From contig JAJYWG010000352.1 in NCBI GenBank assembly GCA_021791615.1, positions 330 through 64,329 of the forward strand: 64,000 nt of DNA. The letters are read 5' to 3'. The notes under the pieces were generated by a model. The model was not told the origin of the DNA. It saw nothing but the letters and a program-made list of their open reading frames with translations, and searched no databases. A program made the position numbers and the translations under genes. The stretch is from Actinomycetes bacterium. Lineage in GTDB: Bacteria > Actinomycetota > Acidimicrobiia > Acidimicrobiales > RAAP-2. Shown piece after piece: positions 4,576 through 21,619 of this stretch. Within the stretch, counting starts at the first letter, position 1, and each line of letters begins with the position of its first letter.

Positions 4576-5363
4576 GATACACCATTGCTGCGCGTGGATC
4601 GTGCCCGCTTGGTCTTGGTCGCCGTGTGGAGACGGTAGGAGTTTGACCCGGTCTCGATGATGAGCGAACGGAACGTGAGCCGGTCGACGACCGCTCCGGC
4701 CAGCCGGGCGTCGCTGAACGTGCGACCCCACTCACTGAACGGTGCATTCGAGGCCGCGGCCACCGAGCGCTTCTCCTCCCGTTCGGTCAGAACCTGGAAC
4801 AACAGCTCCGCACCTCGTACGTCGAGGCTCAGGTAACCGAGCTCGTCCAAGCAGAGCAAGTCGATCCGGCCGTAGCGAGCGATGACCCTCGACAAGGTCC
4901 GATCGTCCGCGGCCTCGACGAGCTCGTTCACCAGAGCTGCAGTGGTCGTGTAGCGGACCCTCTTGCCCGCTTCGGCTGCCGCCATCCCGGTGCCGATCAG
5001 CAGATGGGACTTGCCCGTACCCGAGTCGCCCAAGAACACGACCGGGTCGCCGTGTTCGATGAATGCTCCGGCTGCCAACGCCGCCACGGTGGCCTGGGCC
5101 ACCGTGGAGCAGGAGCAGTCGAACTCGCTCAGGCGCTTGCTCCGCGGGAACTTGGCGTCGGCGACGCGACGCCCTCTGCGCCGTTCTGCACGGTCGTCGA
5201 TCTCGGCAGCCAGCACGTCGGCCAGATAGGCACGGTGGGTGAGTCCCTGGGCCAGCGCGCTGTTGGCAATGGCCGATGCCTCGGTGCGCACAGTCGGGAG
5301 TTTGAGCTCCCGACATGCCGCGTCGATCGCGGCCTCAGCCGCCTCCTCGGTGCGCACGGTCAT
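4572..5363 (-). CDS. istB: IS21 helper ATPase IstB
   Basis: AAA+ ATPase that, in IS21, chooses target DNA and stimulates the IstA transposase. It is 263 residues, normal for the family. Walker A is GDSGTGKS (residues 112-119), Walker B LLCLDELGYL (169-178), with an arginine-rich C-terminal part. The start ATG overlaps the istA stop and the stop overlaps the next gene, so the three genes are translationally coupled. The frame is intact, so this helper should be functional if expressed. Confidence 0.95.
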   Translation of the reverse strand: MTVRTEEAAEAAIDAACRELKLPTVRTEASAIANSALAQGLTHRAYLADVLAAEIDDRAERRRGRRVADAKFPRSKRLSEFDCSCSTVAQATVAALAAGAFIEHGDPVVFLGDSGTGKSHLLIGTGMAAAEAGKRVRYTTTAALVNELVEAADDRTLSRVIARYGRIDLLCLDELGYLSLDVRGAELLFQVLTEREEKRSVAAASNAPFSEWGRTFSDARLAGAVVDRLTFRSLIIETGSNSYRLHTATKTKRARSTRSNGVS

Positions 5364-6896
5364 CGTCCCTCCTCGGTGTGTCCGAGCAGTCCGTCGTAGG
5401 CGGAGAGGTCCGGTGCGGGCCGTTCGTCACAGGGGGGAGCCTCGATCGGGATCACCTGGGCCAGGTGCTCACCGGCTGCCCGGCGGGCCTCGATGGCGAC
5501 GACCTCGGGCGCCACCGTGCAGAGTGCAAGTGCCACCGACATGCCCGTGACCACGGCTTCTTTGGGCAGCGTGCGGGCGAGCAGCAAGGCCTCGATGAGT
5601 GCTGCAGTCCCCCGCCGGTCGCCGAGCTGACGGCGGGCCTCGTCCCAGTAGGCGTCGTGGACGGGGCCGAACACCCCGGCCGAGCGCGCCTGGGCCAAGG
5701 GGACCGACGAGGCGAGTGCACCGGGCTTTCTCACCAGCACCTCCAAGTAGTGATCGAGGCAAAGGGACTCGGATCCCCGCCCGACCAGGCGCTCGTGGGT
5801 GGCCACCACCTTCCCCTTGTTCGAGATGACGATGTCACTCGCACCGATCGCGACCTCAAGGCGCCGGCCGACGAGCGAAACCGGTACCGAGTAGCGGCAC
5901 TGACGCACACAGACCCGGGCCTTGGCGTCGACGCGAGCAGTCGCGTGCTTGGCCACGTCGAAGCGCTCGGCCGGCAGGTCCTGGAGCGTCGCTGCTTCAA
6001 GCGCGAACTCGGTGCCGATCGTGGACCGGTGTCCTTCGATCACCCGTGTGAGGTCTTGGTGGTCGTAGGCGGTGATCATCTCGTTCAGCTCGGCGACGCT
6101 CGCCGCTTCGGGAACCGGGACGAGGTGGTTGCGGCGAAACCACCCGATGTCGCCTTCGACGCCACCCTTTTCGTGCGCGCCCTCGATGCCCGGACGACAG
6201 TAGAAAGGGTCGAACCCGAAGTGACTGCGCATGAGCACGAACGCCTCGGACTCGATGCGGTCACGGCCGAGCAGGACCCGGGCAACCGCTGGCTTCAAAT
6301 TGTCGTAGCGAATGCGCAAGTGCACCCCACCAAGCCGGTCGAAGGCGTCGACGTGGCCGTCGAAGAACGCTTCTTGGGCCTGGGTGGCAAACACCTTGTG
6401 GCATGCCCGTCCCGACGCCGACAGGCGCATCGAGAACAGCCAGAGCTTCGTCATGACCCCGGCGATCACCGCCCACAGTTCGCCGAAGTCGATCTCGGCC
6501 TCGTGGCCGAGCTCGTGGACCTGGGGCACCATCGCCTCGGCCGGGCGATTGGCGATCTCGGCGCGGATCCGGCGCACCGCCTCGCGCACGGTCGACTCGG
6601 CAACCGTCGCACCCTCTTCAACAACGAGGCGCATCCACACCCGTCGGGCGGTGTGGCGCTGCTTTCTCGGCGCATCCTTGTCGGCGATCAACCACGCCCG
6701 GACGGTGGCCTCGTAGGGGCCCATGACCGGAGCCGCCTTGGGGGCGGATCCCCTGCGCTCAGGGGGGGGTGGCAGAGGCCAGCGCCTGGCGCACCACACG
6801 CCGGTGGACCTTGTGCCTTCTCGCCAGCTCCCGGATCGACAACTGCTCCAGGCGGTGGTCGCGTCGGATACTTTCGAACTGCTTCACCCTCGTCAT
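5360..6896 (-). CDS. istA: IS21 transposase IstA, frameshifted at poly-C
   Basis: DDE integrase of IS21. The N-terminal part starts at the ATG at 6896 behind AGGGAGAAGGAG and encodes the typical HTH (SIRELARRHKVHRRVVRQAL). It runs into a TGA directly after a run of eight C (6762-6769 on the plus strand, as G8). The remaining ~460 residues, with the rve core (AEIDFGE, RYDNLK, GAHEKGGVEG), lie in another frame; seven C would join them. Alternatives are a real mutation, a sequencing error in the homopolymer, or translational slippage at C8, which the sequence alone cannot separate. Read as two open frames: 5360-about 6770, and about 6762-6896. Confidence 0.85.
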
Positions 6897-8109: not shown

Positions 8110-8307
8110 TCATGCCGTCCACGGTCGCGCCCGGCGGATCAGCGCCGGGCGGCTCCACCAGCGCCCGCTGAACCTCCACGCCAGGTGAGCCGCGTCGGGT
8201 TTGTCGGGCGGCGACGCCACTGGTCGGGGCCACACCTGGTCCAGCGCCGCGGCGACCATCGCCACCACCAGCGGGTCGGGAGCGTTGGTCCCGCTCGGTG
8301 CGCTCAT
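8110..8307 (-). CDS. accE: Acyl-CoA carboxylase epsilon subunit
   Basis: A 65-residue protein. Its ATG overlaps the stop of the carboxyltransferase gene (ATGA). The N-terminal helix ([14 protein letters not shown]) and C-terminal [11 protein letters not shown] segment fit the short epsilon subunits that stabilise actinobacterial propionyl/acetyl-CoA carboxylase holoenzymes. The family is small and variable, so the call leans on position directly behind the beta subunit as well as on the motif. Confidence 0.8.
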
Positions 8308-9848
8308 AAGGGTACGTTCCCGTGCTTGCGCCGGGGGAGCTCCTCCTGCTTGGAGGCCAGCACGTCGAGCGAGCGGGCAAGCACGCGACGGGTGTCCGCC
8401 GGCGAGATGACGTCGTCGACGTACCCGCGCTCGGCGGCGATATACGGGTTGGCGTAGCGCTCCGTGTACTCCTCGACCAGCTCGGCCCGGCGCGCTTCAC
8501 GGTCCTCGGCCTCCGCGAGCTCTCGACGGAAGACGATCTCCACCGCACCGTTGGGTCCCATCACCGCCAGCTCGGCCGACGGCCAGGCGTAGGCCAGATC
8601 GGCCCCGATGGACTTGGAGTTCATGACCACATAGGCGCCGCCATAGGCCTTTCGAGTGATCACTTGGATCCGCGGCACCGTCGCCTCGCAGTAGGCATAG
8701 AGCAGTTTCGCCCCGTGGCGGATGATCCCGCCATACTCCTGATCGGTGCCGGGCATGAAGCCGGGCACGTCCACGAAAGTGACCAAGGGGATGTTGAACG
8801 CGTCGCAGGTTCGCACGAAGCGAGCTGCCTTCTCCGAGGAGTCGATGTCGAGGACGCCGGCCAGCACGGCGGGCTGGTTCCCGACGATCCCCACCACCCG
8901 CCCGCCGATACGGGCGAACCCGCAGGTGATCGACATGGCCCAGTGTGAATGGATCTCCATGAACTCGCCGTCGTCCACCACTGCGGTGATGACCTTCTTC
9001 ATGTCGTAGGGCTGGTTGGGAGAGGACGGCATGAGGTCGATCAGCTCGGGGGTCTCGCGCTCGGGATCGTCTCCCGAGACGACGGGTGGGGGCTCCTCCA
9101 GGTTGTTCGAGGGAAGGAACGAGAGCAGGTAGCGGACGTCGTCGAGGCATGCCTTCTCGTCGGGCGACACGAACGTCGCGACCCCGGACTTGGTGGCGTG
9201 GCTCATGGCCCCACCCAGCTCTTCGAGCGTGACGTCCTCGCCGGTCACGGTCTTCACCACGTCGGGACCGGTGATGAACATGTGCGAGGTCCCTTGCACC
9301 ATGAAGATGAAATCGGTCATGGCAGGCGAGTAGACCGCTCCCCCGGCGCACGGCCCCATGATGACGCTGATCTGGGGGATGACCCCTGACGCGGTCACGT
9401 TGCGATGGAAGATCCCGCCGTAGGAGTGCAAGGACACGACACCCTCTTGGATGCGGGCACCAGCGCCGTCGTTCAATCCGATCATCGGGACCCCGATCGA
9501 CGCAGCCAGGTCCATCACCTTGTGGATCTTCTCGGCGAATACCTCACCCAGTGCTCCGCCGAACACCGTGAAGTCCTGCGAGAACACGCACACCCGGCGG
9601 CCGTCGATCGTGCCGAAACCGGTCACCACCCCGTCGGTGTACGGGCGCTGGTCTTCCAAGCCCATGCCGTGGGCCCGGTGGCGAGCGAGCATGTCCAGCT
9701 CCTGGAAGGAGCCGTCGTCGAGGAGATAGTCCAGCCGTTCGCGCGCGGTCATCTTGCCTTTGACGTGCTGGCGCTCGATCGAAGACGGGCTCCCGGCATG
9801 TCGCGCCTCTTCCTTGCGAGCTTCGAGGTCGGCGAGTCGTTGCTCCAT
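8304..9848 (-). CDS. Acyl-CoA carboxylase beta (carboxyltransferase) subunit
   Basis: Carboxyltransferase beta subunit of a biotin-dependent acetyl/propionyl-CoA carboxylase, which moves CO2 from carboxybiotin to acyl-CoA giving malonyl- or methylmalonyl-CoA. It is about 514 residues, normal for PccB/AccD5. Both crotonase-like halves are visible, with oxyanion-hole glycines in [12 protein letters not shown] and [12 protein letters not shown] chose the ATG at 9848 because GGAG lies six bases upstream; an ATG at 9860 also fits. Substrate (acetyl or propionyl) cannot be settled here. The biotin-carrying alpha subunit is not in the window. It is divergent from the transporter operon. Confidence 0.95.
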
Positions 9849-10013
9849 GGAGTGCTCCATCGCGGAGAGGCTATCCGGGCCTGGGCGGGCTCCGCATACG
9901 CCCGGCCCGTGCGATCGAACCGAAAGGTCCGGCCACCTGACCCGTTCCAAAGGAGAACGGCAACGACCTCGCGGCCGGAGTGGCGACGGGGTCCGTGAGA
10001 GGGGGAGGGTCCA

Positions 10014-10769
10014 GTGGCACTGCTCGAGGCGATCGGTGTCGACGTGCGGTTCGGCGGGATCCACGCGCTGCACGACGCCCATCTCCAGGTCGAGCGAGGC
10101 CAGGTCACCGGCCTCATCGGGCCCAACGGCGCCGGCAAGACCACCATGTTCAACGTCGTGTGCGGCCTGCAGCCCGTCCATGCCGGCCGCATCGTCTTCG
10201 ACGGCCGAGACCTCGGCCGATTGCGCCCCCACCGGCGGGCGCGGCTCGGGATCGCCCGTACCTTCCAGCGCCTCGAGGTCTTCGGGTCGCTCACGGTACG
10301 AGAGAACGTCCTGGCGGCTGCCGAAGTCCGGCGACGGTGGGCACGCGACCGCTCGGACCCGGTCGCGACGAGCGAAGCCATCTTGGGTCTCGTCGGACTA
10401 TCCGCGCTCGCCGAACGCAGGGCAGAGACGCTCCCCACCGGACAGGCCCGCCTGCTCGAGCTCGGCAGAGCCCTCGCCACTCGTCCCTCGCTGCTCCTCC
10501 TCGACGAGCCGTCCTCGGGCTTGGACGAGAACGAGTCCGACGAGCTGGGCGACCTGCTGTGCCGGCTGGCATCGGCAGGCATGGCCATCCTCTTGGTCGA
10601 GCACGACATGGAGCTGGTCATGCGGGTGTGCTCAGTGGTCAACGTGCTCGACTTCGGAGCGATCCTGGCCAGCGGGCCACCCGAGCAGGTACGGGCCGAC
10701 CCGAGAGTCCGGGCAGCGTATCTGGGGAGCGAAGACGCGCCATCGGAGACGGCTGATGCCCTCGTCTGA
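10014..10769 (+). CDS. livG: Branched-chain amino-acid type ABC ATPase LivG
   Basis: First gene of the transporter operon, starting at GTG behind GGGGGAGG. A 251-residue ABC ATPase of the LivG subtype: Walker [10 protein letters not shown]-loop region [10 protein letters not shown], a degenerate signature LPTGQ instead of LSGGQ, Walker [13 protein letters not shown], and H-loop VEHD. It energises uptake through the permease encoded downstream. The substrate class (branched-chain amino acids, amides, urea or other) cannot be read from the ATPase. It overlaps the next gene by 14 bases. Confidence 0.92.
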
Positions 10770-11568
10770 GCGGCGTGCGCTGCCGCCGATCGTCGAGCTT
10801 CGTGGGGTTCGCGCCGCCTACGGGCGAATCGAAGTGCTCCACGGCATCGACCTGGCAGTCGGGCCTGGAGAGGTCGTGGCTCTCCTCGGACCCAACGGCG
10901 CCGGCAAGTCCACCACGCTCAAGGTCGCGAGTGGCCAGCTCCCACCAGTGGCTGGCTGCTACCACGTCCTCGGCCGACATGCCAACGGCATCCGCCCCGA
11001 CGCGCTTGCTCGAGCTGGACTGTGCACCATCCCCGAGGGCCGAGGGATCTTCCCCAACCTCTCAGTCTCCGAGAACCTCACGGTCATGACCTACAGCGGG
11101 CTCTCGCGACGAGAGGTCCAGGAACGCGCGTTCGCGCGCTTTCCTCGATTGGCCGAGCGGCGACGCCAAGTCGCCGGCACGATGTCCGGCGGCGAGCAGC
11201 AGATGCTGGCCATGGCACGAGCGCTCAGCGCCGAACCGGCGGCATTGCTGCTCGACGAGATCTCGATGGGCCTGGCGCCGCTGATCGTCGACGAGCTCTA
11301 CGAACTGGTCGCCCAGATCGCCGCCGAACGGGTCGCGGTGCTGCTCACCGAGCAGTTCGCCAGGGCAGCGCTGCGAGTCGCCTCGCGGGTGGTGCTCATG
11401 GCCCAAGGACGGATCGTGGCCTCGGGACAACCGGACGACCTGCCGTCCGATCTGGCCGACGCCTACCTGGGAGGTGCTGGGCGGAACGATGGCGGTGCTC
11501 CGGTGGGCGGCGCTCCGGTGGGCGGCGCTCCGGTGGGCGGCGCTCCGAACGAAGGGAGGGCGGCATGA
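10756..11568 (+). CDS. livF: Branched-chain amino-acid type ABC ATPase LivF
   Basis: Second ATPase of the pair, 270 residues, with Walker A GPNGAGKS, signature MSGGEQQ, Walker B LLLDEISMGL and a LivF-type C-terminal half ending in YLGG. It starts at ATG 10756 inside the end of livG. The last ~25 residues are a GGAPV repeat encoded by 15-bp tandem units; ordinary LivF proteins end near YLGG, so this tail is an add-on. The stop overlaps the start of the next gene (ATGA). Confidence 0.92.
   Translation: MPSSERRALPPIVELRGVRAAYGRIEVLHGIDLAVGPGEVVALLGPNGAGKSTTLKVASGQLPPVAGCYHVLGRHANGIRPDALARAGLCTIPEGRGIFPNLSVSENLTVMTYSGLSRREVQERAFARFPRLAERRRQVAGTMSGGEQQMLAMARALSAEPAALLLDEISMGLAPLIVDELYELVAQIAAERVAVLLTEQFARAALRVASRVVLMAQGRIVASGQPDDLPSDLADAYLGGAGRNDGGAPVGGAPVGGAPVGGAPNEGRAA
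11491..11547 (+). repeat. 15-bp in-frame tandem repeat in livF
   Basis: About 3.8 copies of GGCGGCGCTCCGGTG, encoding repeated GGAPV at the LivF C-terminus. The unit is a multiple of three, so copy-number change would keep the frame. Confidence 0.95.
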
Positions 11569-13280
11569 GCAAGCCCCGTACGTTGACGGCTGTCGGCACG
11601 GTGATTGGTGCCGTCGTTCTCGGTCTGGGCCTGGGTCTCGGTCCGGCGCTGGGAACGGCGATCGCCGGCGCAGCCGCACCGGCGACAGATCTCGGAGGGT
11701 TCACCGTGAACGCGCTCGCCGAGGCCTCGACGGCGAGCTACGAGCAGCCGAACGCCCCGATCCCGGCGACACCCACGGCCGAGCTCGACGAGGGCTACGC
11801 CACAACGAGCGACAACTTTGGTCCGACCGGCAGCGCGACCGCGTCGAGCCTCTACCCGGGCCAGGTCATCGCCAACGCCGGGCCCGAGCTCGGCTCGTTT
11901 GCCCCGGGGGTGCCCCTGCCGGCGGCTCCGGTCTGGCCGATCCAAGCCCAGTCCACCTACCCCCAATCCCCGGCCAGCACGTCTCGCGATCAGCCCGGCG
12001 TCACCATGCAGGCGACCTCGGGCGCCGGGGGGAGCACCGCGACGGCCCAGCTCGGCAACACGACCTCGACGACCTCGAGTGCATGCGCCACATACGCGAA
12101 CACCCAGCCAGCCAGCCCGACGTTGCCCGACCTGACAGTGCTCGGCACGCTGGCAGGGTCGTCGGGGTCCGGCGGGTCGTCGGGGTCCGGCGGGTCGTCG
12201 AGCCTGGCGGCCACCTCGGCGCTTGGCCATGTCCGTTCCAGCTCGGGGACGTCGTCCAGCAAGACGGCCACAGGCGTCGCGACGGCGACGGCGACGGCCA
12301 CCGACTCGTGCGTCTCGATCCTCGGCGGTCTCATCAGCATCGGCTCGGTGACGTCCTCGGCCACGGCCACATCGAACGGCACTGCTGCCCGGCTCAGCGG
12401 CTCGACCACGGTCCAGGGGGCGAGCATCGGCGGCGAGCCTGTGACGATCACAGGCTCGGGGATCCACGCCGCCGGACAGTCGTCGCCTGGGGCGACAGGA
12501 CTCTCGGCACTGCAACAGGCGCTGGGCCAGCTCGGCATCACGATCTCCGTGACCAGCCCAACGGACTCGGTCCACGGATCGCAGGCGAGCCGGCGCCTGG
12601 ACGGGTTGCGGATCACGGTGGATCTGAGCACGTTGGACGCTGAGGCCGACGCCTACAGCAAGCTCCTCCCAAACAGCGTCACGGCCGAGCTACCGCTCCC
12701 GGTTCCCAACAAGCAGGTGCTCGTGTGGGACCTGGCCACTGTCGACGTCCAAGTCGCAGCGTCACCGGCCTACGCCGGTACAGCGACGGGATCGTCCACC
12801 GGACAGGGGGGAGCCCAGACGGACCTGGCAGCGGTCCCGCCCAGCACATCGGTCGGTGGCGGGACACCCTCCCCCACCACCTCGACAGCGAGCACCGGAT
12901 CGACCGGGAGCACAGGCGCCACAGATGCGCCGGCCGCCACCACTGGGACGGCGAACCCGTCGCGCAGCGGAACGGGCTCCGGGGGCACTCACCCCGTACC
13001 GGCCACGGACACCGCGTCAAGCGTGCCTCTGGCATTCCGCGGGATCGGCGCCGGCCTCGTCATCCTCGGCCTCCTGGCAGCCGGTGGGCTCGCCTTCACC
13101 GCCATGCGGGCCAACGCCGCGAGCGAGCTGGGCGGTGGTGCAGGCGGTGGCGCGGGCGGTGGTGCGGGCGGTGGTGCGGGTGGTGGTGCGGGCGGTGGTG
13201 CGGGCGGTGGTGCGGGCGGGAACCCACCCGATGCCACCCAGATCGCCACCGAGGAGGTGTGGTCAGATGCGCTTTCGTAA
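11565..13280 (+). CDS. Large secreted Ser/Thr/Gly-rich surface protein
   Basis: A 571-residue protein with a signal peptide (basic start, hydrophobic VGTVIGAVVLGLGLGL, then AGAAAPA), a long Ser/Thr/Ala/Gly-rich extracellular part with SGSGGSS repeats and a few cysteines, and a single C-terminal membrane span (GAGLVILGLLAAGGLAF). A cytoplasmic tail follows with seven GGGA units and an acidic end. I do not recognise a domain family; it looks like a membrane-anchored surface protein. It sits between livF and the binding-protein gene, overlapping both neighbours, so it is almost certainly expressed with the transporter. A structural role at the envelope is inference. Confidence 0.8.
   Translation: MSKPRTLTAVGTVIGAVVLGLGLGLGPALGTAIAGAAAPATDLGGFTVNALAEASTASYEQPNAPIPATPTAELDEGYATTSDNFGPTGSATASSLYPGQVIANAGPELGSFAPGVPLPAAPVWPIQAQSTYPQSPASTSRDQPGVTMQATSGAGGSTATAQLGNTTSTTSSACATYANTQPASPTLPDLTVLGTLAGSSGSGGSSGSGGSSSLAATSALGHVRSSSGTSSSKTATGVATATATATDSCVSILGGLISIGSVTSSATATSNGTAARLSGSTTVQGASIGGEPVTITGSGIHAAGQSSPGATGLSALQQALGQLGITISVTSPTDSVHGSQASRRLDGLRITVDLSTLDAEADAYSKLLPNSVTAELPLPVPNKQVLVWDLATVDVQVAASPAYAGTATGSSTGQGGAQTDLAAVPPSTSVGGGTPSPTTSTASTGSTGSTGATDAPAATTGTANPSRSGTGSGGTHPVPATDTASSVPLAFRGIGAGLVILGLLAAGGLAFTAMRANAASELGGGAGGGAGGGAGGGAGGGAGGGAGGGAGGNPPDATQIATEEVWSDALS
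13131..13220 (+). repeat. 12-bp in-frame GGGA-coding tandem repeat
   Basis: Seven copies of a 12-bp unit close to GGCGGTGGTGCG, encoding (GGGA)7 in the tail of the surface protein after its membrane span. Confidence 0.93.
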
Positions 13281-13959
13281 GACTCCAGCCGGCCGGGGGC
13301 CGGGGAGCCAGCTCGACACGACACAGGCAGGGACGGTCAGGATGGCCGCGGGCTCCTCGGGCCTCGACGCGCTCCTCCGGCTTCCCGGCAACGTGCCCAG
13401 CGGGGGTGAGCCCAGTGCGGCCATCCCTGGCGGGGGCGTATCGAATGGGGTCGGGCTGGGTGCGGGCTCGACCGACCGCGGCACGCCAGACGTCCCACGA
13501 ACGGCGATCCGCCAGCGTCTGGCCCGCCTGGCTGCCGGAGTGGACCGCTCCCGTCCGCGCCGGGCAGGCGCGCGCGACGTCCAGAAGATCCTGAACACCT
13601 CGGGCGTTCTCGTCATCGGGTTCGGGATCGCAGCCGTCGTGCTGGGCTGGTACGGCGCGGCCCACAGCCCGTACCTCTTCGAGGAGGTGCCCTACCTCAT
13701 CTCCGGCGGGCTCCTCGGCGTGGCGCTGGTCGTCGCCGGTGCTGCGGCCTACGCCGCGAGCTGGTCGCTCCGCCAAGTCCAAGAGCACCGCCGCGACACC
13801 GAGACCCTCGTGGCCGCGATCGAACGCCTCGAGCGCGCCACCCGGTCAGCTGCAGCCTTCCCGCCGGTCCTCTCGCCGCCGGCGCCCACCGAACGGCCCC
13901 AGCCGGCTCCACAATCAGCGCCTCAGCCGGCTCCACTGCCCGAAGCGATGGTCCGATGA
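13267..13959 (+). CDS. Two-span membrane protein of the liv operon
   Basis: A 230-residue protein starting at ATG 13267 behind GAGGAGGTG and overlapping the surface-protein gene by 14 bases. About 115 polar residues precede two hydrophobic spans (SGVLVIGFGIAAVVLGWYGAA and LISGGLLGVALVVAGAAAYA). A short coiled-coil-like stretch (RQVQEHRRDTETLVAAIERL) and a proline-rich tail follow. No family recognised. The stop overlaps the next start (ATGA). Its fixed place in the operon suggests it works with the surface protein or the transporter, but this is inference only. Confidence 0.8.
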   Translation: MRFRKTPAGRGPGSQLDTTQAGTVRMAAGSSGLDALLRLPGNVPSGGEPSAAIPGGGVSNGVGLGAGSTDRGTPDVPRTAIRQRLARLAAGVDRSRPRRAGARDVQKILNTSGVLVIGFGIAAVVLGWYGAAHSPYLFEEVPYLISGGLLGVALVVAGAAAYAASWSLRQVQEHRRDTETLVAAIERLERATRSAAAFPPVLSPPAPTERPQPAPQSAPQPAPLPEAMVR

Positions 13960-15500
13960 ACGCTTTCCGCGGTCGCCGGGGCCTTGCCCACCGTCGCTCT
14001 GCCGTCGTGGCGGTGGCGGCGATGGCCCTCCTTTTGTCGGCGTGCGGCTCACGCTTGGCCGCCAACCAGATCCCGTTGGCCGAGGGCGCCCCAGGTGCGG
14101 TAGGCGCGGCGAGCGGGACGGGAGCCGTCGGATCGGCTGGCGCAGCCGCCGGTACAAGTGCCTATGGGGCGGCGACCACAGCGGGAGGAGCATCGAGCTC
14201 GCCAGGCGCGGCAAGCACGAACAACGGGGCGGCGACGGTCGGCAGCAAGAGCGTCGCCGGCGCCGCGGGTGGGAAGGTGTCGAACGCACGGACCACCTCG
14301 GCCGGCGCCCAGCCTTCGGGTACCGGCTCGGGAGGAGGCGCGCCAGCGCCCGCAGGCGGCAACGGCGGCGCGACCACAGTCGGCGTCACCGGCACCCAGA
14401 TCACCATCGCCAACATCGCCAGCATCAGCGGTGTGGCGCCAGGGCTCACCCAGAGCGCGCAGCAGGCTACCGAGGCGTTCGCCGCCTACGTGAACAGTCA
14501 GGGAGGCATCTACGGCCGCACGCTGAAAGTCGAACCCTTCGACGACCAGAACACTTCGGGACAGAACTATGCCGACGCGGAGCAGGCATGCACGAACGCG
14601 TTCGCGATGGTCGGCAACGCGTCGGGCTTCGACACAGGAAGTGCCCAGGCGGTCAGCCAGTGCGGTATCCCCGACGTCGCGGCCGAGAACTCCACCACCC
14701 AGGCGGGCGAGACGGCGGACATCTACGCGGCGAGCCCCGGCAACGCCCACTACTGGCCACTCGGCGCGGCTGAGTACCTCAAGTCCAAGTACCCCAACGC
14801 GGTCACCCACGCCGCCATGATCTACCTGAATGTCCCGGCCACCGAAGAGCAGGCCCAGCACGAGATGGCGGCTTACAAATCGGTCGGCTTTGACTACATC
14901 TACACAGCATCGGTCACCCCCACCGAACCGAACTACGCGCCCTACGTGCTCCAGATGCAGCAGAAGGGCGTCCAGTACGTGACCGAGTACTCCACAATGA
15001 GCTCGGCAGCTCGCCTGCTCGAAGCCATGCAGCAGCAGAACTTCCAGCCCCAGGTGGTGGACTGGTTCTCCGAGGAGTACACACCCCAGTTCATCGAGCA
15101 GACCCAAGGCGAGTCCAACGGCGACCTGGTCCTGATGGCCACTGCCGCCTACGAGGAGGCGGGCAGCATCCCCGAGATGCAGACGTACCTCTCCTGGCTC
15201 AACCGGGTGGCCCCAGGGGCCAAGCACGACATCTTCGGGATCTTCGCCTGGTCGGCTGGGCTGGCGTTCCTCCAGGCGGCAAAAGCCGTCGGTCCGCATC
15301 TCACCCGGGCCGCGTTGCTCGCGCAACTGGCGAAGATCCACACATGGACCGGCGACGGCCTCCAGCCTCCGGAGAACTTCGGCACAAAGATACCGAGCAA
15401 GTGCTTCGACTACTTCCACATCGAGGGCAGCAGCTTCCAGCGGCTGTACCCGTCGACGCCGAACACCTATGACTGCAGCGGCGGGCTCTACCAGTACTGA
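13956..15500 (+). CDS. ABC transporter substrate-binding lipoprotein (LivK-like)
   Basis: A 514-residue extracellular binding protein of the Peripla_BP_6/LivK type. The signal peptide ends in the lipobox LLLSACG, so it is predicted to be a lipoprotein. About 120 residues of Gly/Ala/Ser-rich linker follow before the binding domain begins at GVTGTQITIANIASISG. Family features include QGGIYGRTLKVEPFDDQ and the two-lobe layout through GIFAWSAGLAFLQA. It delivers ligand to the permease encoded next; ligand identity is unknown. The linker is longer than usual for LivK. Confidence 0.9.
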   Translation: MNAFRGRRGLAHRRSAVVAVAAMALLLSACGSRLAANQIPLAEGAPGAVGAASGTGAVGSAGAAAGTSAYGAATTAGGASSSPGAASTNNGAATVGSKSVAGAAGGKVSNARTTSAGAQPSGTGSGGGAPAPAGGNGGATTVGVTGTQITIANIASISGVAPGLTQSAQQATEAFAAYVNSQGGIYGRTLKVEPFDDQNTSGQNYADAEQACTNAFAMVGNASGFDTGSAQAVSQCGIPDVAAENSTTQAGETADIYAASPGNAHYWPLGAAEYLKSKYPNAVTHAAMIYLNVPATEEQAQHEMAAYKSVGFDYIYTASVTPTEPNYAPYVLQMQQKGVQYVTEYSTMSSAARLLEAMQQQNFQPQVVDWFSEEYTPQFIEQTQGESNGDLVLMATAAYEEAGSIPEMQTYLSWLNRVAPGAKHDIFGIFAWSAGLAFLQAAKAVGPHLTRAALLAQLAKIHTWTGDGLQPPENFGTKIPSKCFDYFHIEGSSFQRLYPSTPNTYDCSGGLYQY

Positions 15501-15533
15501 GCCACCCGCGAACTCGAGAGCGACGGAGGGCTC

Positions 15534-17480
15534 GTGCACGAACTGTTCGCCTTCACCATCGTAGGAGTCGTCACCGGAGCGGCCTACGCCGTCGCCGCCA
15601 GTGGCCTCGTGGTGACGTACTCGACCTCGGGCATCTTCAACATCGCCCACGGCGCGGTCGGAATGCTGATGGCGTTCGTCTTCTGGCAGTTCGAGATGGC
15701 TTGGCACTGGCCCACGCTCTTGTCCCTTGTCGTCACCGTGCTCGTCATCGCGCCACTGTTCGGTGCCGCGGTCGAACGCTTCCTCATCCGACGCGTCGCC
15801 GACGCGTCGGTGGCGACCACGCTCGTCGTGACCATCGGGCTCATGGTCGGGCTGATCGGGTTGGTCGATACGGTCTGGCCTCCCGAAGCACGGGTGCTGC
15901 TCCCCTTCTTCGGTCACTCAGGGTTTCAGCTCGCCGGGGTGTTCGTCACCTGGGAGGACGTCATCACCGTCGGCGCGGCACTGGGAATCGCCGCCGGTCT
16001 GCGCCTGTTCTTGTACCGCACCCGGACCGGCGTCACCATGCGGGCGGTGGTGGACAACCGGGGCCTGGCCGGGCTCAACGGCGCGCGACCGGCCCGGATC
16101 GGCACGCTCAGCTGGGCATTGGGAGCGATGCTGGCCTCGATCGCCGGCATCCTCATCGCCCCTGAGCTCCAGCTCTCGGTCCTGCCGCTCACCTTGCTCG
16201 TCGTCGATGCCTACGCCGCCGCGATGATCGGTCGGCTGAGGAACCTTCCGCTCACCTTTGCCGGCGCCCTGTTGATCGGGCTCCTCCAGTCCTACGCCGT
16301 GGGCTACATGCCCAGCACCGGCATCTGGGACTCGGTCCCCCTCCAAGGCATGCGCCTCGCCATCCCTTCGATCCTGCTCTTCGTCACCCTCTTGGTGCTC
16401 CCGCAGGACACCATCCGCGGTGCGATCTTCCAGGTCAAGCGAGTCGTCCGGCCCACGGCATCGCTCGTCCGCTCGCTCCAGGGCGCGGTCTTCCTCGTCG
16501 TGGCCGTCGCGCTGGCCACCTCGTTCCTCGGCACCGGCGACACCGTGGACTTGGGCACCGGTCTGGCGCTCGGGCTCATCATGCTCTCGCTGGTGCCACT
16601 GTCGGGATGGGGCGGCCAGGTCTCCTTGTGCCAGATGACCTTCGCCGGGCTCGGCGCATTCGCCATGGCTCGCGCCGGGGGAGGCGGGTCTCCCCTGGGC
16701 CTGCTGGCAGCCGCCGGGCTGGCGGGTGCGGTCGGCGCGCTTGTGGCGCTCCCGGCACTCCGACTGAAAGGCCTGTACCTCGCGCTGGCCACCATGGCGT
16801 TCGCGGCCGCGATGGACGACATGTTCTTCCCGACCTCGACGGCGTTCACCTTCAACGGGTCGGTGCCGATCCCTAGGCCGAGCATCTTCGGCCTTCACTT
16901 CGTCGGGCAGCGATCGTTCGTCGTCTTTCTGGCCGTCGTCTTCGCCGTTCTGTCGGTGGCGATCCTGGCCCTGCGCCGGGGGCCGTTCGGCCGGGTCCTC
17001 TCGGCGATGAAAGACAGCGAGGCCGCGTGCGCCACCCTCGGTCTGAACCTCACGCTGACCAAGCTCGTCGTCTTCTCCCTCTCCGCTGCGATGGCCGGGT
17101 TCGCGGGGGCCCTCTACGGCGGCATGGAGTCGGTGGCCGGCGCCACCCAGTTCGAGATGCTCCAGAGCCTTCCCATCCTCTTGTTGTGCGTGGTGGGGGG
17201 CGTGGCGACGTGCAGCGGCGCGCTCTTCGGAGGGATCGTTCTCGGGCTCGGCCCGGTCCTGCAGTCAGCGCTCCCGCAAGTCGGGAGCGTCTCGCTGCTC
17301 GGCACCGGTCTGGCCGGGGTCACCCTCGGGGCGAACCCCGACGGCCTGATGCCGGCCTTCTACGAACGGGCAGCATCGTGGTGGTCGGGACTCCTCGCGC
17401 GCGGTGCCTGGCTGCTCAGTCGCCGGCTCTCCGGGACCCTCGCGGCGCCGGCCGGCGAGACGACCACAGTGCCGGCATGA
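15534..17480 (+). CDS. Fused LivH-LivM ABC permease
   Basis: A 648-residue polytopic membrane protein beginning at GTG behind ACGGAGGG. Residues about 1-300 match LivH (GLNGARPARIGTLSWALGAM region) and about 320-610 match LivM (GQVSLCQMTFAGLGAF, RLKGLYLALATMAFA, AMKDSEAACATLGLN). In most bacteria these are two genes; here they form one chain, which would make the channel from a single polypeptide. It uses the ATPases and lipoprotein of the same operon. The stop overlaps the next start. Confidence 0.92.
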   Translation: MHELFAFTIVGVVTGAAYAVAASGLVVTYSTSGIFNIAHGAVGMLMAFVFWQFEMAWHWPTLLSLVVTVLVIAPLFGAAVERFLIRRVADASVATTLVVTIGLMVGLIGLVDTVWPPEARVLLPFFGHSGFQLAGVFVTWEDVITVGAALGIAAGLRLFLYRTRTGVTMRAVVDNRGLAGLNGARPARIGTLSWALGAMLASIAGILIAPELQLSVLPLTLLVVDAYAAAMIGRLRNLPLTFAGALLIGLLQSYAVGYMPSTGIWDSVPLQGMRLAIPSILLFVTLLVLPQDTIRGAIFQVKRVVRPTASLVRSLQGAVFLVVAVALATSFLGTGDTVDLGTGLALGLIMLSLVPLSGWGGQVSLCQMTFAGLGAFAMARAGGGGSPLGLLAAAGLAGAVGALVALPALRLKGLYLALATMAFAAAMDDMFFPTSTAFTFNGSVPIPRPSIFGLHFVGQRSFVVFLAVVFAVLSVAILALRRGPFGRVLSAMKDSEAACATLGLNLTLTKLVVFSLSAAMAGFAGALYGGMESVAGATQFEMLQSLPILLLCVVGGVATCSGALFGGIVLGLGPVLQSALPQVGSVSLLGTGLAGVTLGANPDGLMPAFYERAASWWSGLLARGAWLLSRRLSGTLAAPAGETTTVPA

Positions 17481-18586
17481 CCGCGCCCACGAGCACGCGC
17501 GAGCGCTCGCCCAGCCACGCTCCCTCACGCACCGCCGAACGCCGCTCCCGACAGCGCCTCTCCACCGAGCGGCACCGCCTCGAGGCATCACGGCGACGCC
17601 ATCGCACTCGACTGGCCCGTCGTGCCCGTCGCGCGGCCGGGGCGGGCGCAGCCCTCCTCATTCTCCTCGCAGTCCTCGCGTTGGTGCTCACCCAGGAGCT
17701 CGCCCCCGCTGCACCGTCTCCGGCCACTCTCACCGTGCTCACCCACCAACCGGCGGTCTCCTCGGTCGCCGTAGGCGAGGGGTCGGGCTGGCTCACCGAC
17801 GATCGCACCGACACGCTGGTGCGCTTCGACCCGTCCACCGGCCGCAGGCTCGGCCCGAGCCTCTCGGTGCCCGGGCGCCCCGTCGACGTCGTGACGGCGG
17901 CCGGCCATGTCTGGGTGGCGAGCATGCTCACCAACACGGTCGAGGAGATCGCCCCGGATCATCTCCGTCTCGTCCGCACGCTGCCAGTCCCGTCCGGACC
18001 TGTCGGGATGGCGTGGGACGGCGGGCTGCTCTGGGTGGCCAGCGTCCTCGCCGGTGACGTGACGGCGATCGACCCCTACGACGGCCGTATCGTGGCGACT
18101 TCGCACATCGCGTCCGGCGCCGTGCGGATCGCCGCCGGAGGTAGCAGCGTCTGGGTGACGGGCAGCACGGACACGGTCGCCGAGGTGAGCCCACGTCCGG
18201 CCGGCGGCCGCTTGCACTGGCGCACCATCGTCGTGGGTCGGAGTCCCCTCGGGGTGGCCGCAGGGCCGCGGGCCGTGTGGGTCGCCGACGCCGGCGCCGG
18301 AACGGTGACCGAGATCGACCCGGCGACCGGACGTGTCGTGGGCACCTACCGGACCGGACCGGACCCCGTAGCCGTGGCGCCGATGCCCGGGACCGAGGGA
18401 GCGACCGCCTGGGTGGCCGACGGGCAAGCCGACGACGTGCGCGCCGTGGGAGCAGGGGCAGGCAGCGGCGGCGTGGGGCCCGTGGCGCACCTTGGAGGCA
18501 CGCCTCGCCAGATGGTCGTCGCCGGAGCGGCGGTCTGGACCGCAATTGGCAACCCCGGCACGGTGGTCTCCGTCCAAGGCGGCTGA
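17477..18586 (+). CDS. Membrane-anchored beta-propeller protein
   Basis: A 369-residue protein starting at ATG 17477 overlapping the permease stop. A strongly basic N-terminus (many RR/RH) leads into one span (AGAALLILLAVLALVLTQEL). The rest is repeats of the form WVA....V..IDP..GR, the pattern of YVTN/NHL/SMP-30-like beta-propellers, with at least six blades. The propeller should face outside. Propellers of this type bind ligands or proteins; a catalytic role is not evident. Last gene of the operon. Confidence 0.85.
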   Translation: MTAPTSTRERSPSHAPSRTAERRSRQRLSTERHRLEASRRRHRTRLARRARRAAGAGAALLILLAVLALVLTQELAPAAPSPATLTVLTHQPAVSSVAVGEGSGWLTDDRTDTLVRFDPSTGRRLGPSLSVPGRPVDVVTAAGHVWVASMLTNTVEEIAPDHLRLVRTLPVPSGPVGMAWDGGLLWVASVLAGDVTAIDPYDGRIVATSHIASGAVRIAAGGSSVWVTGSTDTVAEVSPRPAGGRLHWRTIVVGRSPLGVAAGPRAVWVADAGAGTVTEIDPATGRVVGTYRTGPDPVAVAPMPGTEGATAWVADGQADDVRAVGAGAGSGGVGPVAHLGGTPRQMVVAGAAVWTAIGNPGTVVSVQGG

Positions 18587-18631
18587 GCGTCGCGCAGCGG
18601 GGCGTCCTGGCGCCGCGCAAACAGGACCGGA

Positions 18632-18658
18632 ACCGGGGCCCGCGATCGCGACCCCGGT
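18632..18658. terminator. GC-rich hairpin between convergent genes
   Basis: A 7-bp stem ACCGGGG/CCCCGGT encloses the palindrome CGCGATCGCG, in the gap between the propeller gene and the leftward lipoprotein gene. It lacks a T tract, so it is only a candidate bidirectional terminator. Confidence 0.35.
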
Positions 18659-18665
18659 CGCGATC

Positions 18666-19499
18666 TCAACCGGTCGGTGATGTTGTTGTGTCCTTCTTCA
18701 CGTTCGTCGGCACCGGGATCTTGGCAACGCCGCCGATCGAGTCGATCGTGAACGAGTAGGTGACGTGGTGGTTCGAGGTGCCCACTCCCGAACCTTGGGC
18801 CCCGAGCGCGTACGAGAGCAGCGCGCCGCTGCTGTTGGAGATGCACGCGTTGGCCAGCTCGTTCAGCACCTTGGAGTTCAGCTCTTTGGACTCGATGGTG
18901 AACGTGGTGCCGGCCTGTCCGGCTTCGCTGCACGACGCGCCCTTTGTCACCGTCGCCCCGGCCACCTTCAAGTACCCGAGGAACCCCTTGACCGCTTCCG
19001 GGTACGGACTTGTCGAGTAGTGCTGGACGTTCGCCGGCTGTACTGTCTCGTACCAGGTTGTGCCCAGCTTCGAATAGGTGGCTGTCGCGGTGTGGAGCTG
19101 AACGTTGGGCTGTGTCGTCTGGTAGTCCGTCTGCGAGTACACCTCGCCATGCATGGCGAGCGAACCGTTGTCTGTGAAGTTGAAGGTGTAGTTGGTGAGC
19201 GAGCCGAGCTTCGCCTTGGTCGGCAGGGCTGACGCGCCGGGCACCGAGGTCGAGTGCGGTGTCGGGGCGGGTGTCGAGTTGTGCGTGGCAGAGGACGGCG
19301 TCGTCGATCCGGTGGCCGCGGTGGGGCCCGAAGGGCTCGACGAGCCGCAGGCGGCCAGGGCCAGGGAGAATGCAGTCGTCGCGAGCAGCGCACCCACGCC
19401 TCGCCACGTCCGGGCCGAGTGCCTGCCGGGGAGGGCGGGGGGAAGTGTGGCGGCTTTGGGCCGATCGGTGGCTGTCGTCGCTCGGGCGGTCGTATTCAT
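18666..19499 (-). CDS. Putative lipoprotein
   Basis: A 277-residue protein starting at ATG 19499 behind GAGGAG. A long basic N-region precedes a hydrophobic core and the lipobox LALAACG, then a Ser/Thr/Pro spacer. The mature part has alternating strand-like segments (NYTFNFTDNGSLAMHGEV and similar), reminiscent of LppX/LprG-like cup-shaped lipoproteins, though I cannot confirm that fold. Two cysteines (ASCSEAG, NACISN) might form a disulfide. It is convergent with the liv-type operon; function unknown. Confidence 0.78.
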   Translation of the reverse strand: MNTTARATTATDRPKAATLPPALPGRHSARTWRGVGALLATTAFSLALAACGSSSPSGPTAATGSTTPSSATHNSTPAPTPHSTSVPGASALPTKAKLGSLTNYTFNFTDNGSLAMHGEVYSQTDYQTTQPNVQLHTATATYSKLGTTWYETVQPANVQHYSTSPYPEAVKGFLGYLKVAGATVTKGASCSEAGQAGTTFTIESKELNSKVLNELANACISNSSGALLSYALGAQGSGVGTSNHHVTYSFTIDSIGGVAKIPVPTNVKKDTTTSPTG

Positions 19500-19510
19500 C
19501 GTCTCCTCAC

Positions 19511-19554
19511 GGTGTCCAGTGGCCGGGGCGAAGGTGTCCAGTGGCCTGGGCGAA
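19511..19554. repeat. 22-bp tandem repeat, two copies
   Basis: Two adjacent 22-bp units (GGTGTCCAGTGGCC-G/T-GGGCGAA) differing at one base, 12 bases upstream of the lipoprotein gene start. They could lie in its promoter or leader. Confidence 0.9.
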
Positions 19555-19656
19555 GCGGCCATGACGTTCGCCGAAACTTCAAAACGGGAAAACGCTGCAA
19601 AGCCTGCAAGATACCACCGGCGAGAAGCCCGAACCACGCACGCGGCACTGGGGTGC

Positions 19657-19720
19657 GGCGGCGGGGGGGTGCGGCGGCGCGGCAGTACGGCGGCGGGGGG
19701 GTGCGGCGGCGCGGCAGTAC
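19657..19720. repeat. Perfect 32-bp tandem duplication
   Basis: Two identical 32-bp units containing G7 and ending CGGCAGTAC, in the intergenic stretch between the epimerase gene end and the lipoprotein gene. No coding frame uses it. Confidence 0.93.
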
Positions 19721-19766
19721 GGCGACGCACGCGGTGCACACGGGATGGCGCCACTCACGCCGCCTC

Positions 19767-20282
19767 CTACTCCTGGACGAGCTCGATGAGGGTCCCGAAC
19801 GCGGTCTTGGGGTGCACGAAAGCCACCGTGGTCCCTCGCGAGCCTGGCCGCGGGGCGGCGTCGATGGCCCGGCCTCCGTGATCGACGATCGACGCGAGCG
19901 CTTGAGCGCAGTCGGTAACGCGGTACCCCACGTGGTGGAGACCTTCACCTTTGGCTGCCAAGAACTTCGCCACCGGGGAGTCCTCCCGGATCGGCGTGAG
20001 GAGCTGGATGTAGGAGTCGGCCACCTTGAGGAGGGCCTCTTCGACGCCGTCGGACTCGACGACCTCTCGGTGGGCAACGCTCGCCCCCAGGTTCTCGGCG
20101 TACCAGGCGGCCGCGGCGTCGAGGTCCGAGACGGCGATGGCGACGTGGTCGATCTCGGTCAGCAGGCCGCCCGTGTCCTGCCCGCGTCCGTCGCCTGCCC
20201 CAGCTCCGGCCGCAGTCCCGGCCCCAGCCCCAGCCCCGGCCGCAGCCGCAGTCCCGGCCCCTGCCCCTGCCGCGCCGCTCAT
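19767..20282 (-). CDS. mce: Methylmalonyl/ethylmalonyl-CoA epimerase
   Basis: Vicinal-oxygen-chelate fold enzyme that interconverts the 2R and 2S forms of methylmalonyl-CoA (and ethylmalonyl-CoA in some pathways). Recognisable features are EIDHVAIAVSDLDAAAAWY, GEGLHHVGYRV and GTLIELVQE, which supply metal-binding His and Glu residues. It carries an odd ~40-residue Ala/Gly/Thr N-terminal extension. The ATG overlaps the stop of the crotonyl-CoA carboxylase/reductase gene, so the two are coupled, which favours a role with that enzyme. Confidence 0.92.
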   Translation of the reverse strand: MSGAAGAGAGTAAAAGAGAGAGTAAGAGAGDGRGQDTGGLLTEIDHVAIAVSDLDAAAAWYAENLGASVAHREVVESDGVEEALLKVADSYIQLLTPIREDSPVAKFLAAKGEGLHHVGYRVTDCAQALASIVDHGGRAIDAAPRPGSRGTTVAFVHPKTAFGTLIELVQE

Positions 20283-21619
20283 GCCTCGTGCCGCCGGAAC
20301 AGCGTCAGCCGGTCCTCGCCGACGCGTTGGCGCATCTCGGGATCGTCGATGCCCAGTCCTTCAGACGGGGCGAGGCACAGCACACCGATCTTGCCCTCGT
20401 GGAGGTTGTGATGGACCTGCGCCGCCGCCTCCCCGACGTGCTCGAGCGGGAACACCGCCGAGAGCGGGGGGATGATCTTCCCCTCGCACACCAGACGGTT
20501 GGCGTCCCACGCCTCGCGGTAGTTGGCGAAGTGCGAGCCTTTGATGGTCTTGAGGCGCATCCACAGATGCCGGTTGTCGTACTCGATCATGTAGCCCGAG
20601 GTAGCCGCACACGTGACGATGGTCCCGGCCCGTTTGCAGGCGAACACCGAGGCTCCCATCGTCTGGCGACCCGGGTGCTCAAAGACGATGTCCGGATCCT
20701 CGCCCACCAGTGCCCTCACGTCCTTGCCGAACCGGCGCCACTCCGTCTCGTCCTGGGTGTGCTCGTCCTTCCAGAAGCGGTACGCGGCAGCCCGGCGGTC
20801 GATCACCGCCTCGACACCGAGGTCGTGCAGCAGCTCGACCTTCTCGGGAGACGAGACCACGCCCACCGGCGTCCCCCCGGCGTTGAGCACGTACTGAACG
20901 GCGAAGCTGCCGAGCCCGCCGCTCGCTCCCCACACCAGCACCCGGTCGCCCTGGGTCACCGGCGCACCGTTGTGCGAGACGAGCATCCGGTACGCCGTCG
21001 AGTTGCACAGCGCGTTCACCGCCGCCTCCTCCCAGCTCAAGTGGGCCGGTTTGGGCATGAGCTGGTTGGCCTTGACCACCGTGATGTCGGCCAGGCCCCC
21101 GAAGTTCGTCTCGAAGCCCCAGATGCGCTGGTTCGCCGCCAGCATCGAGTCGTCGTGGGCGGTGGGGTCCTGGTCGTCGACGTAGTTGCAGTGGATCGTG
21201 ACCTTGTCACCGGGCTTCCAGTTGCGCACCAGCGACCCGGTGCGCAGCACCACTCCCGAGGCGTCGGAGCCCACGACGTGGTAGTCCAGCGCATGGCGGG
21301 CGCCCCAGACCCCCTCGCGCCCGAGCCGGTCGAGGAACCCGAACGTCGGCAGCGGCTCGAAGATCGACGTCCACACCGTGTTGAAATTGATCGACGAGGC
21401 CATGACCGCGACGTACGCCTCGTCGGGGGCCAGCTCGGGCAGCTCGACGTCGCCCACATGGAGCGACTTGCGCGGGTCCTTGTCGATGGAGGGCACCCCG
21501 TCGAACATCCCGATCTCGTCACGGCTCACGAACGCGGCCCTGTAGGTTGCCGGGAGCGGCAGGGAGGCCAGTTCGGCACCCCCGGCCCCGGCCACGACGG
21601 CTTCGAGTATCTCGTTCAT
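20279..21619 (-). CDS. ccr: Crotonyl-CoA carboxylase/reductase
   Basis: A 446-residue enzyme of the MDR (medium-chain dehydrogenase/reductase) superfamily that reductively carboxylates crotonyl-CoA to ethylmalonyl-CoA with NADPH and CO2. Length and blocks match Ccr: SSINFNTVWTSIFEP, GREGVWGARHALDYHVVGSD, the Rossmann GASGGLGSFAVQYVL, and HPGRQTMGASVFACKRAG. I start it at ATG 21619, since the upstream in-frame extension is unlike the family. Key enzyme of the ethylmalonyl-CoA pathway, and also a source of extender units. It is divergent from a thiolase gene. Confidence 0.95.
   Translation of the reverse strand: MNEILEAVVAGAGGAELASLPLPATYRAAFVSRDEIGMFDGVPSIDKDPRKSLHVGDVELPELAPDEAYVAVMASSINFNTVWTSIFEPLPTFGFLDRLGREGVWGARHALDYHVVGSDASGVVLRTGSLVRNWKPGDKVTIHCNYVDDQDPTAHDDSMLAANQRIWGFETNFGGLADITVVKANQLMPKPAHLSWEEAAVNALCNSTAYRMLVSHNGAPVTQGDRVLVWGASGGLGSFAVQYVLNAGGTPVGVVSSPEKVELLHDLGVEAVIDRRAAAYRFWKDEHTQDETEWRRFGKDVRALVGEDPDIVFEHPGRQTMGASVFACKRAGTIVTCAATSGYMIEYDNRHLWMRLKTIKGSHFANYREAWDANRLVCEGKIIPPLSAVFPLEHVGEAAAQVHHNLHEGKIGVLCLAPSEGLGIDDPEMRQRVGEDRLTLFRRHEA

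Follow-up and report, generated by a model that had tools for sequence, protein, structure and literature searches.

ATP-binding cassette (ABC) importers of the LIV type (HAAT; LivKHMGF and, for urea, UrtABCDE) share their ATPases, permease domains and family of binding proteins with the operon described here, which lies at positions 10014-18586 of a 64,000-nucleotide stretch of DNA from an Actinomycetes bacterium of the Acidimicrobiales (assembly GCA_021791615.1, contig JAJYWG010000352.1). The whole of this stretch is referred to below as the window. ABC operons that include an anchored surface protein are known from actinobacteria as the anchored repeat-type ABC transporters (TIGR03771 and related families). 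The passage of poorly diffusing nutrients through a thick wall to an importer in the membrane is, to our knowledge, little explored in one-membrane bacteria. Substrate-binding protein (SBP) domains on linkers occur in GlnPQ and OpuA, where they are joined to their own translocator according to the available parts of two papers (PMC8025302, PMC11065425).

In the window, the genes of a LIV-type importer are accompanied by genes for a surface protein (surf) and a two-span membrane protein (mem2). Comparison of sequences across genomes shows a dedicated association of these two proteins with LIV cassettes, long LivK tethers in those cassettes, covariation of the tether with the linker of surf, and a surface protein that is replaceable. 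We interpret the system as an importer whose partner for capture or docking would meet LivK at a matched height, a reading to which we assign a probability of about 0.5. The preliminary description of this DNA listed seven overlapping or nearly touching genes; all seven are present on the + strand where it placed them and with the products that it named. A second locus, L001 (contig JAJYWF010000013.1 of the metagenome-assembled genome FK2.bin96), has the same seven genes in identical order (identity to the window of 91% for LivHM, 82% for LivK, 65% for surf and 53% for the propeller protein encoded last).

Features of surf and mem2

Surf (11565..13280, + strand; 571 residues) is a predicted type I membrane protein with an N-terminal signal-like stretch and a single C-terminal span in its hydropathy profile. 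The ectodomain (11688..12770, +; residues 42-402) is modelled by AlphaFold2 as long antiparallel β-strands with a low-confidence insert at residues ~178-217. It is followed by a low-complexity linker of ~90 residues (12771..13040, +), for which the predicted local distance difference test score (pLDDT) is mostly <50, by the span (13041..13097, +; residues 493-511) and by a 60-residue tail that is taken to be cytosolic. The model has a mean pLDDT of 68.4, with residues 43-405 mostly >70 and a helix at residues 496-523, and its comparison with the PDB gave no meaningful fold match. Surf narrowly passes the threshold of the NCBIfam family NF040603, 'choice-of-anchor P' (28.6 bits; cut-off 27) and has the C-terminal anchor characteristic of that family (one span and then a tail). 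In the set A6, 62 of 72 proteins match NF040603 with an E value of 0.001 or better. Where surf homologues carry an organism name, several are from Acidimicrobiales. The preliminary description called its extra proteins unfamiliar, which for surf is only partly apt: the family is named, but has no function attached to it.

Mem2 (13267..13959, +; 230 residues) has a charged N-terminal region and two spans (residues 108-126 and 143-161 from hydropathy) joined by a short and very conserved loop, GWYGAAH...PYLISGG. Both ends are probably cytosolic, because they are positively charged. A C-terminal H-x3-C...C-x2-C finger is present in 12 of 19 aligned mem2 proteins (one other, from L035, is cut by the contig end) and in all 19 mem2 open reading frames (ORFs) of the phylum sample described below; its spacing may resemble that of the zinc site of Ada. 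The finger is missing from the window, L001, L033, L034, L038 and L039, that is, from the window lineage and two other loci. These loci keep surf and the long LivK tether, and the finger was not treated as a defining feature of the cassette.

No credible Pfam family was found for mem2 of the window, and weak DUF3040 matches occur in seven of 19 relatives (E values up to 1; best 1.8e-4). The mem2 profile matches 978 of 7,991 scored candidates with an E value of 0.001 or better, and those among the 120 matches listed are named 'hypothetical protein' throughout. Several genomes hold multiple copies: G291, G305, G314 and G372 have at least ten, ten, five and five mem2 matches and at least five, five, two and three surf matches, respectively, with at most ten mem2 and five surf candidates scored per genome. 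This would fit a diversification of the cassette in these lineages.

Recurrence of surf and mem2 beside LIV genes

Surf was searched for in 120 genomes, namely that of L001 and its relatives, and matches were found in 19. Among 20 stretches fetched from 33 surf match rows, liv genes adjoin surf in 19 and mem2 is also present in 17 of these; in the two stretches without mem2 (L049 and L051) surf runs up to the contig end. One match, L047, was rejected as spurious. In an evenly drawn sample of 296 genomes of the class, surf is present in at least 11 genomes and mem2 in at least 56, and in a phylum sample (296 genomes) surf is present in at least 16 and mem2 (E value 1e-8) in at least 30; these are lower bounds, since the best ten or five candidates per genome were scored. 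The loci inspected from both samples were chosen by us, mostly among the stronger matches. In the class sample, liv genes are present at 11 of 13 loci picked by surf, the misses (L059 and L061) being on contigs of 5.5-5.7 kb, and at seven of seven loci picked by mem2; L060 is counted on a weak LivK match only, and L065 has no mem2. In the phylum sample they are present at all seven loci with surf and mem2 and at 11 of 12 picked by mem2 (L120 is near a contig end), and are absent from L132, a weak surf match.

Permease, mem2 and surf were then searched for separately in ten genomes, and matches within 5 kb of any of the 95 LIV permease loci were counted. All 26 mem2 matches and 16 of 17 surf matches fall within this distance, whereas the fraction of the genome that it takes in predicts 1.04 and 0.58. 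These genomes were picked for having surf matches, and seven supplied rows of the alignments (A1 and A2) behind the profiles; in the three that did not (G372, G220 and G272) all 11 mem2 matches and all six surf matches lie within 5 kb. Seen from the permease, 25 of 95 loci have mem2 and 16 of 95 have surf, the latter being an undercount, as local profile searches gave further surf genes beside mem2 in L080, L083 and L084. The 16 paired surf and mem2 matches lie 27-534 bases apart; exceptions outside these pairs are L041, with livF between the two, and L084, where surf and mem2 flank the permease. G372 has three paralogous surf copies.

At least eight gene orders occur. With G, F, S, M, K and HM denoting livG, livF, surf, mem2, livK and livHM, they are G-F-S-M-K-HM in the window, K-HM-G-F-S-M (such as L042 and L055), K-HM-F-S-M-G (L038, L039 and L058), K-HM-G-S-F-M (L041), G-K-HM-F-S-M (L050), K-HM-S-M with G and F divergent (L043 and L053), S-M-HM-G-F with K convergent (L057) and K-S-M-HM-G-F (L130). 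The order varies among these loci and the set stays whole, which points to selection that keeps surf, mem2 and the LIV genes together.

A LivHM tree of 73 rows comprises 30 rows with surf and mem2, six with mem2 only, four with surf only and 33 with neither; its surf and mem2 loci were picked through surf matches, so these numbers do not estimate the frequency of the cassette. The surf and mem2 label requires nine changes on the tree, compared with a mean of 23.4 after shuffling (none of 500 shuffles gave so few changes), and 27 of the 30 rows fall in a single group of 40 (support 87), in which rows of the other kinds are nested. The window, in which surf and mem2 are clustered with the LIV genes, falls within the proposed class. 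We conclude that surf and mem2 are almost certainly LIV partners, as judged from their genomic association. The claim that the surface and two-span proteins belong with the transporter thus stands, both being recurrent and dedicated partners of LIV cassettes, and a survey of conserved neighbourhoods, which the preliminary description had proposed, did not find the extra genes absent from all relatives. On the same recurrence, its suggestion of an uptake system that spans the envelope is reasonable.

Length of the LivK tether and of the surf linker

LivK (13956..15500, +; 514 residues) is a predicted substrate-binding lipoprotein (Peripla_BP_6, 123.7 bits; cut-off 31.7) with the lipobox LLSACGSR. 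Its lipidated Cys is separated from the binding domain by a tether of ~113 residues (14046..14378, +), 86% of which are G, S, T, A, P, N or Q, and the pLDDT of the model is <50 for residues 5-127. Tethers were measured with a domain-only profile, from the lipobox Cys to the start of the binding domain. They span 84-136 residues (median 95; 27 proteins) in cassettes with surf and mem2 and 15-51 residues (median 31; 11 proteins from nine loci) in LIV cassettes with neither (Mann-Whitney p 1.9e-6), 'neither' meaning that the fetched stretch has no surf or mem2 match, with L073, L076 and L077 on short contigs. Cassettes with mem2 only have tethers of 32-68 residues (eight proteins from five loci). 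The split between long and short holds within all six genomes where both kinds were measured; L078 (G220; mem2 only, 68 residues) was excluded from this comparison. Six further LivKs of surf and mem2 cassettes from the phylum sample have tethers of 67-122 residues, which gives 67-136 for the 33 measured; the 113 residues of the window fit a range of about 67 or more.

No tether length was obtained, for lack of a lipobox or a domain start, in L036, L049, L065, L075, L076, L085, L088 and L099; L085 has a lipobox and a short tether by eye, which would fit the short group. Two rows were labelled as surf without mem2, L051 (103 residues) and L081_13466 (15 residues), and the latter was relabelled as having neither because its surf belongs to a neighbouring cassette.

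The length of the tether varies together with that of the surf linker (rho 0.73, p 1.6e-4 for 21 loci; rho 0.82, p 2.9e-7 for 26 loci, with a mean difference of 26 and a standard deviation of 8 residues). The five added pairs alone give a Pearson coefficient of 0.95 (p 0.012) and a rho of 0.7 (p 0.19). Phylogenetic contrasts on a LivHM tree retain the correlation, with r 0.51 (p 0.019; same sign in 17 of 20) for 21 loci and r 0.66 (p 2.6e-4; same sign in 20 of 25) for 26 loci. As a control, the surf tail behind the span does not covary with the tether (rho -0.20, p 0.39; 21 loci). The set comprises the loci with both measures and includes the near-duplicates L048/L052 and window/L001. The linker could not be measured in L041, L063, L080, L081, L083, L084 and L130, where the end of the domain is unaligned, or in L049 and L051, which show no span; L065 (linker of 559 residues), L035, L062 and L131 gave a length for the linker and none for the LivK tether. 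The long tether and its covariation with the surf linker extend the preliminary description, as does the ethylmalonyl-CoA pathway setting described below.

A second surface-protein family

Seven mem2 loci without surf have LivK tethers of 85-129 residues (L116-L119, L121, L123 and L124). In L116-L119 and L121 an unrelated type I membrane protein is encoded between mem2 and livK; a profile comparison with surf gives a probability of 0.2%, and no Pfam family was found for it. A profile of this second family matches L120 (91.6 bits), L123 (28.7 bits), L124 (85.7 bits) and the mem2 locus L110 (44.2 bits), and has matches in 12 of 198 phylum genomes; L122 has a similar ORF before livK, as judged by eye. 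Three mem2 loci that match neither surface family (L113-L115) have tethers of 18-21 residues. In these three loci, which come from genomes of ~9-10 Mb, LivK keeps the start CGSRL despite the short tether, and in L113 and L115 another exported-looking ORF adjoins livK (by eye).

Transporter genes, neighbourhood and substrate

The remaining genes of the seven on the + strand are livG (10014..10769; 251 residues; ABC_tran 101.1 bits, BCA_ABC_TP_C 46.2 bits with a cut-off of 25.5), livF (10756..11568; 270 residues; ABC_tran 87.9 bits), livHM, a fused LivH-LivM permease (15534..17480; 648 residues; BPD_transp_2 151 bits in two stretches), and a gene for a membrane-anchored β-propeller (17477..18586; 369 residues; sub-threshold YNCE/SGL matches). 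ABC_tran, BCA_ABC_TP_C, Peripla_BP_6 and BPD_transp_2 all score above their Pfam cut-offs, and the operon has the parts that define a LIV/HAAT ABC importer: a Peripla_BP_6-type binding protein, a BPD_transp_2 pair and two ATPases, one with BCA_ABC_TP_C. The scores do not reach the cut-offs for the Escherichia coli LivG and LivF equivalogs (NCBIfam; 199.5 against 362 and 165 against 441) or for the urea transporter (UrtD, 201.3 against 304.1; UrtE, 183.6 against 285.8), and for TIGR03771 LivG reaches 116.7 of the 268.8 required, the anchored repeat-type transporters being another transporter family. Neighbouring ORFs overlap by 4-14 bases, the sole exception being a 33-base gap between livK and livHM; because of these overlaps the seven genes are probably transcribed as one unit. 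No sigma-70-like promoter was found within 9000-20500. Long open frames on the minus strand opposite the operon (10291-18620) are usual for GC-rich coding DNA and were not counted as genes.

The propeller protein, which has a single N-terminal span (residues 53-71) by hydropathy, had been taken as part of the system, a view that we do not retain. It is outside the conserved unit: tblastn matches it in two of 21 loci (L001 and L034), phmmer gave no match in two further sets of 20 loci (some on short contigs), and it is, on this distribution, an extra of the close lineage of the window and not part of the core.

Neighbours of the operon in the window include genes of the ethylmalonyl-CoA pathway. 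A divergent gene for an acyl-CoA carboxyltransferase subunit (8304..9878, - strand; TIGR01117, 807.2 bits, below the cut-off of 998.8) is context outside the transporter. When the neighbouring ORFs of 22 loci were clustered, no other gene was common to more than seven loci, and those shared by several were enzymes of CoA esters with no kinase or regulator among them; the flanking genes were predicted with an in-house tool that uses third-position GC content, and they include some false frames. By structure comparison LivK has the LivJ/LivK fold. Its best profile match in the PDB is 4n03, which by its entry title is a fatty acid ABC transporter binding protein from Thermomonospora curvata and which ranks first by VIA-align and second by Foldseek (16% identity); the family consensus GGVCGR also occurs in 4n03, and the window has GGIYGR. 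The gene neighbourhood and the closest PDB entry point away from branched-chain amino acids. The likeliest substrate, at somewhat less than even odds, is a small or lipid-like carboxylic acid destined for acyl-CoA metabolism, in preference to leucine, isoleucine or valine.

A lipoprotein-like gene is convergent with the operon in the window (18669-19754; no Pfam or NCBIfam match) and in L001 (11805-12689), and could encode a lipid-carrying lipoprotein. The divergent region upstream of livG contains the palindrome GAAC-AA-GTTC in L033 (10561-10900) and the near-palindrome GAACAAGTTA in L034 (12661-13020), which presumably resemble the TetR-type KstR sites of steroid catabolism; none of this type was seen in the window or the L001 stretch. 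About 3 kb before the operon the window has an IS21-type pair (4575-6799), made up of an IstB ATPase and the C-terminal domain of a Mu-like transposase, and a weak, sub-threshold transposase match lies at 2153-3853.

Proposed mechanism and alternatives

In the reading that we prefer, a LIV-type (HAAT) ABC importer is combined with a dedicated two-protein envelope module. Surf would be anchored in the cytoplasmic membrane with its β-domain held in or beyond the cell wall, and the long tether would place the binding domain of LivK at the same height so that the two could meet. Surf may capture, concentrate or dock either the substrate or LivK, and LivK would then swing back to the fused LivHM, driven by LivG and LivF. 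Mem2, a hairpin that usually bears a finger, might hold the span of surf at the permease or tune the ATPases, which is the least certain step. That LivK and surf meet is, judging from the matched lengths, an evenly balanced proposition, and a coupling of surf to the permease or the ATPases through mem2 is rather doubtful.

Several observations weigh against this reading. The gap in tether length is not absolute, as L078 (mem2 and no surface protein detected) has 68 residues and L130 (surf and mem2) has 67. Five independent tree contrasts all go in the same direction with p 0.0625, and p 0.05 is unreachable with five; without the relabelling of L081_13466 there is one exception (28, 14, 1) and p is unchanged. 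Ectodomain length tends weakly to follow the tether, which leaves this control less than clean (rho 0.41, p 0.06; 21 loci), and the covariation could stem from lineage-wide wall thickness or linker growth. The second surface family shows a covariation that is no more than suggestive (linkers of 83-113 and tethers of 85-123 residues; n=5, rho 0.7, p 0.19), and mem2 of the window itself lacks the finger. As regards the substrate, 4n03 ties to within 1 Z with a pyroglutamate binder and a valine binder, the top Foldseek match is 3hut, a putative branched-chain amino acid protein, and six other cassettes have mixed neighbours (46 proteins; surf-bearing cassettes alone were scanned).

The same facts can be arranged differently. 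Surf might be a structural or adhesive wall protein on a shared transcript, with mem2 as its anchor and neither taking part in transport; a family named solely for its anchor, a model without a meaningful PDB match and an ectodomain on a long linker would suit such a role. Yet the association with LIV genes persists through at least eight gene orders and in paralogous copies (three in G372), and hitch-hiking predicts neither long LivK tethers nor their covariation with the linker, so that we regard a wall protein as unlikely. Another explanation is that wall thickness, or slippage of repeats within a lineage, makes both lengths grow, and that there is no contact between surf and LivK. Both linkers are of low complexity in GC-rich DNA and the ectodomain trend points the same way, but in six of six genomes the LivKs of the remaining LIV cassettes are short, the surf tail does not follow and the correlation survives phylogenetic contrasts; the wall-thickness version would still require surf and LivK to reach the same height. 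We consider this explanation somewhat unlikely.

A sensor module, in which surf and LivK detect the substrate, mem2 relays the signal through its finger and the transporter acts as a co-sensor, would account for the prevalence of the finger and for mem2 at LIV loci where no surface protein was detected. The genes shared among the 22 loci are, however, enzymes of CoA esters and not a kinase or regulator, and the window lineage lacks the finger yet keeps surf and the tether, which makes a sensor improbable. In the plainest alternative, the operon encodes a common branched-chain amino acid importer whose neighbours are specific to the lineage. All five transporter parts are of LIV families and LivK has the corresponding fold, but the neighbourhoods are catabolic for CoA esters and this explanation is weakened because surf and mem2 recur near the permease in ten genomes; we regard it as very unlikely. 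Returning to the importer with a capture or docking partner, its extension to a receptor-assisted class of actinobacterial ABC importers is tentative: a long-stalked type I membrane protein (of at least two unrelated families) and LivK would be kept at one height by co-evolving tethers, the substrate would be caught outside the wall, passed to LivK and brought to the permease, and mem2 would couple both at the membrane.

Comparison with known systems

No description of a LIV importer with such partners was found in the literature searched, which excludes subscription papers and preprints, and within the same scope no paper using the term 'choice-of-anchor P' was found; nor was a link between that family and LIV importers found among the literature matches listed. 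The present reading would supply the first functional hypothesis for the mem2 and choice-of-anchor P families. A tether on an SBP and a linker on a surface protein that vary together would also amount to a directly testable geometric rule. GlnPQ and OpuA are alike in having linked binding domains but, in the parts of their literature available, these are fused to the transporter itself, and no separate surface protein on a tether of matched length was found there. The choice-of-anchor P family includes surf by score, and its name tells of the anchor only. Compared with the LIV/HAAT importers, the window adds a fused LivHM, a long LivK tether, surf and mem2 and, if the proposed mechanism is true, the module does for the wall of one-membrane bacteria what outer-membrane receptors do for diderms.

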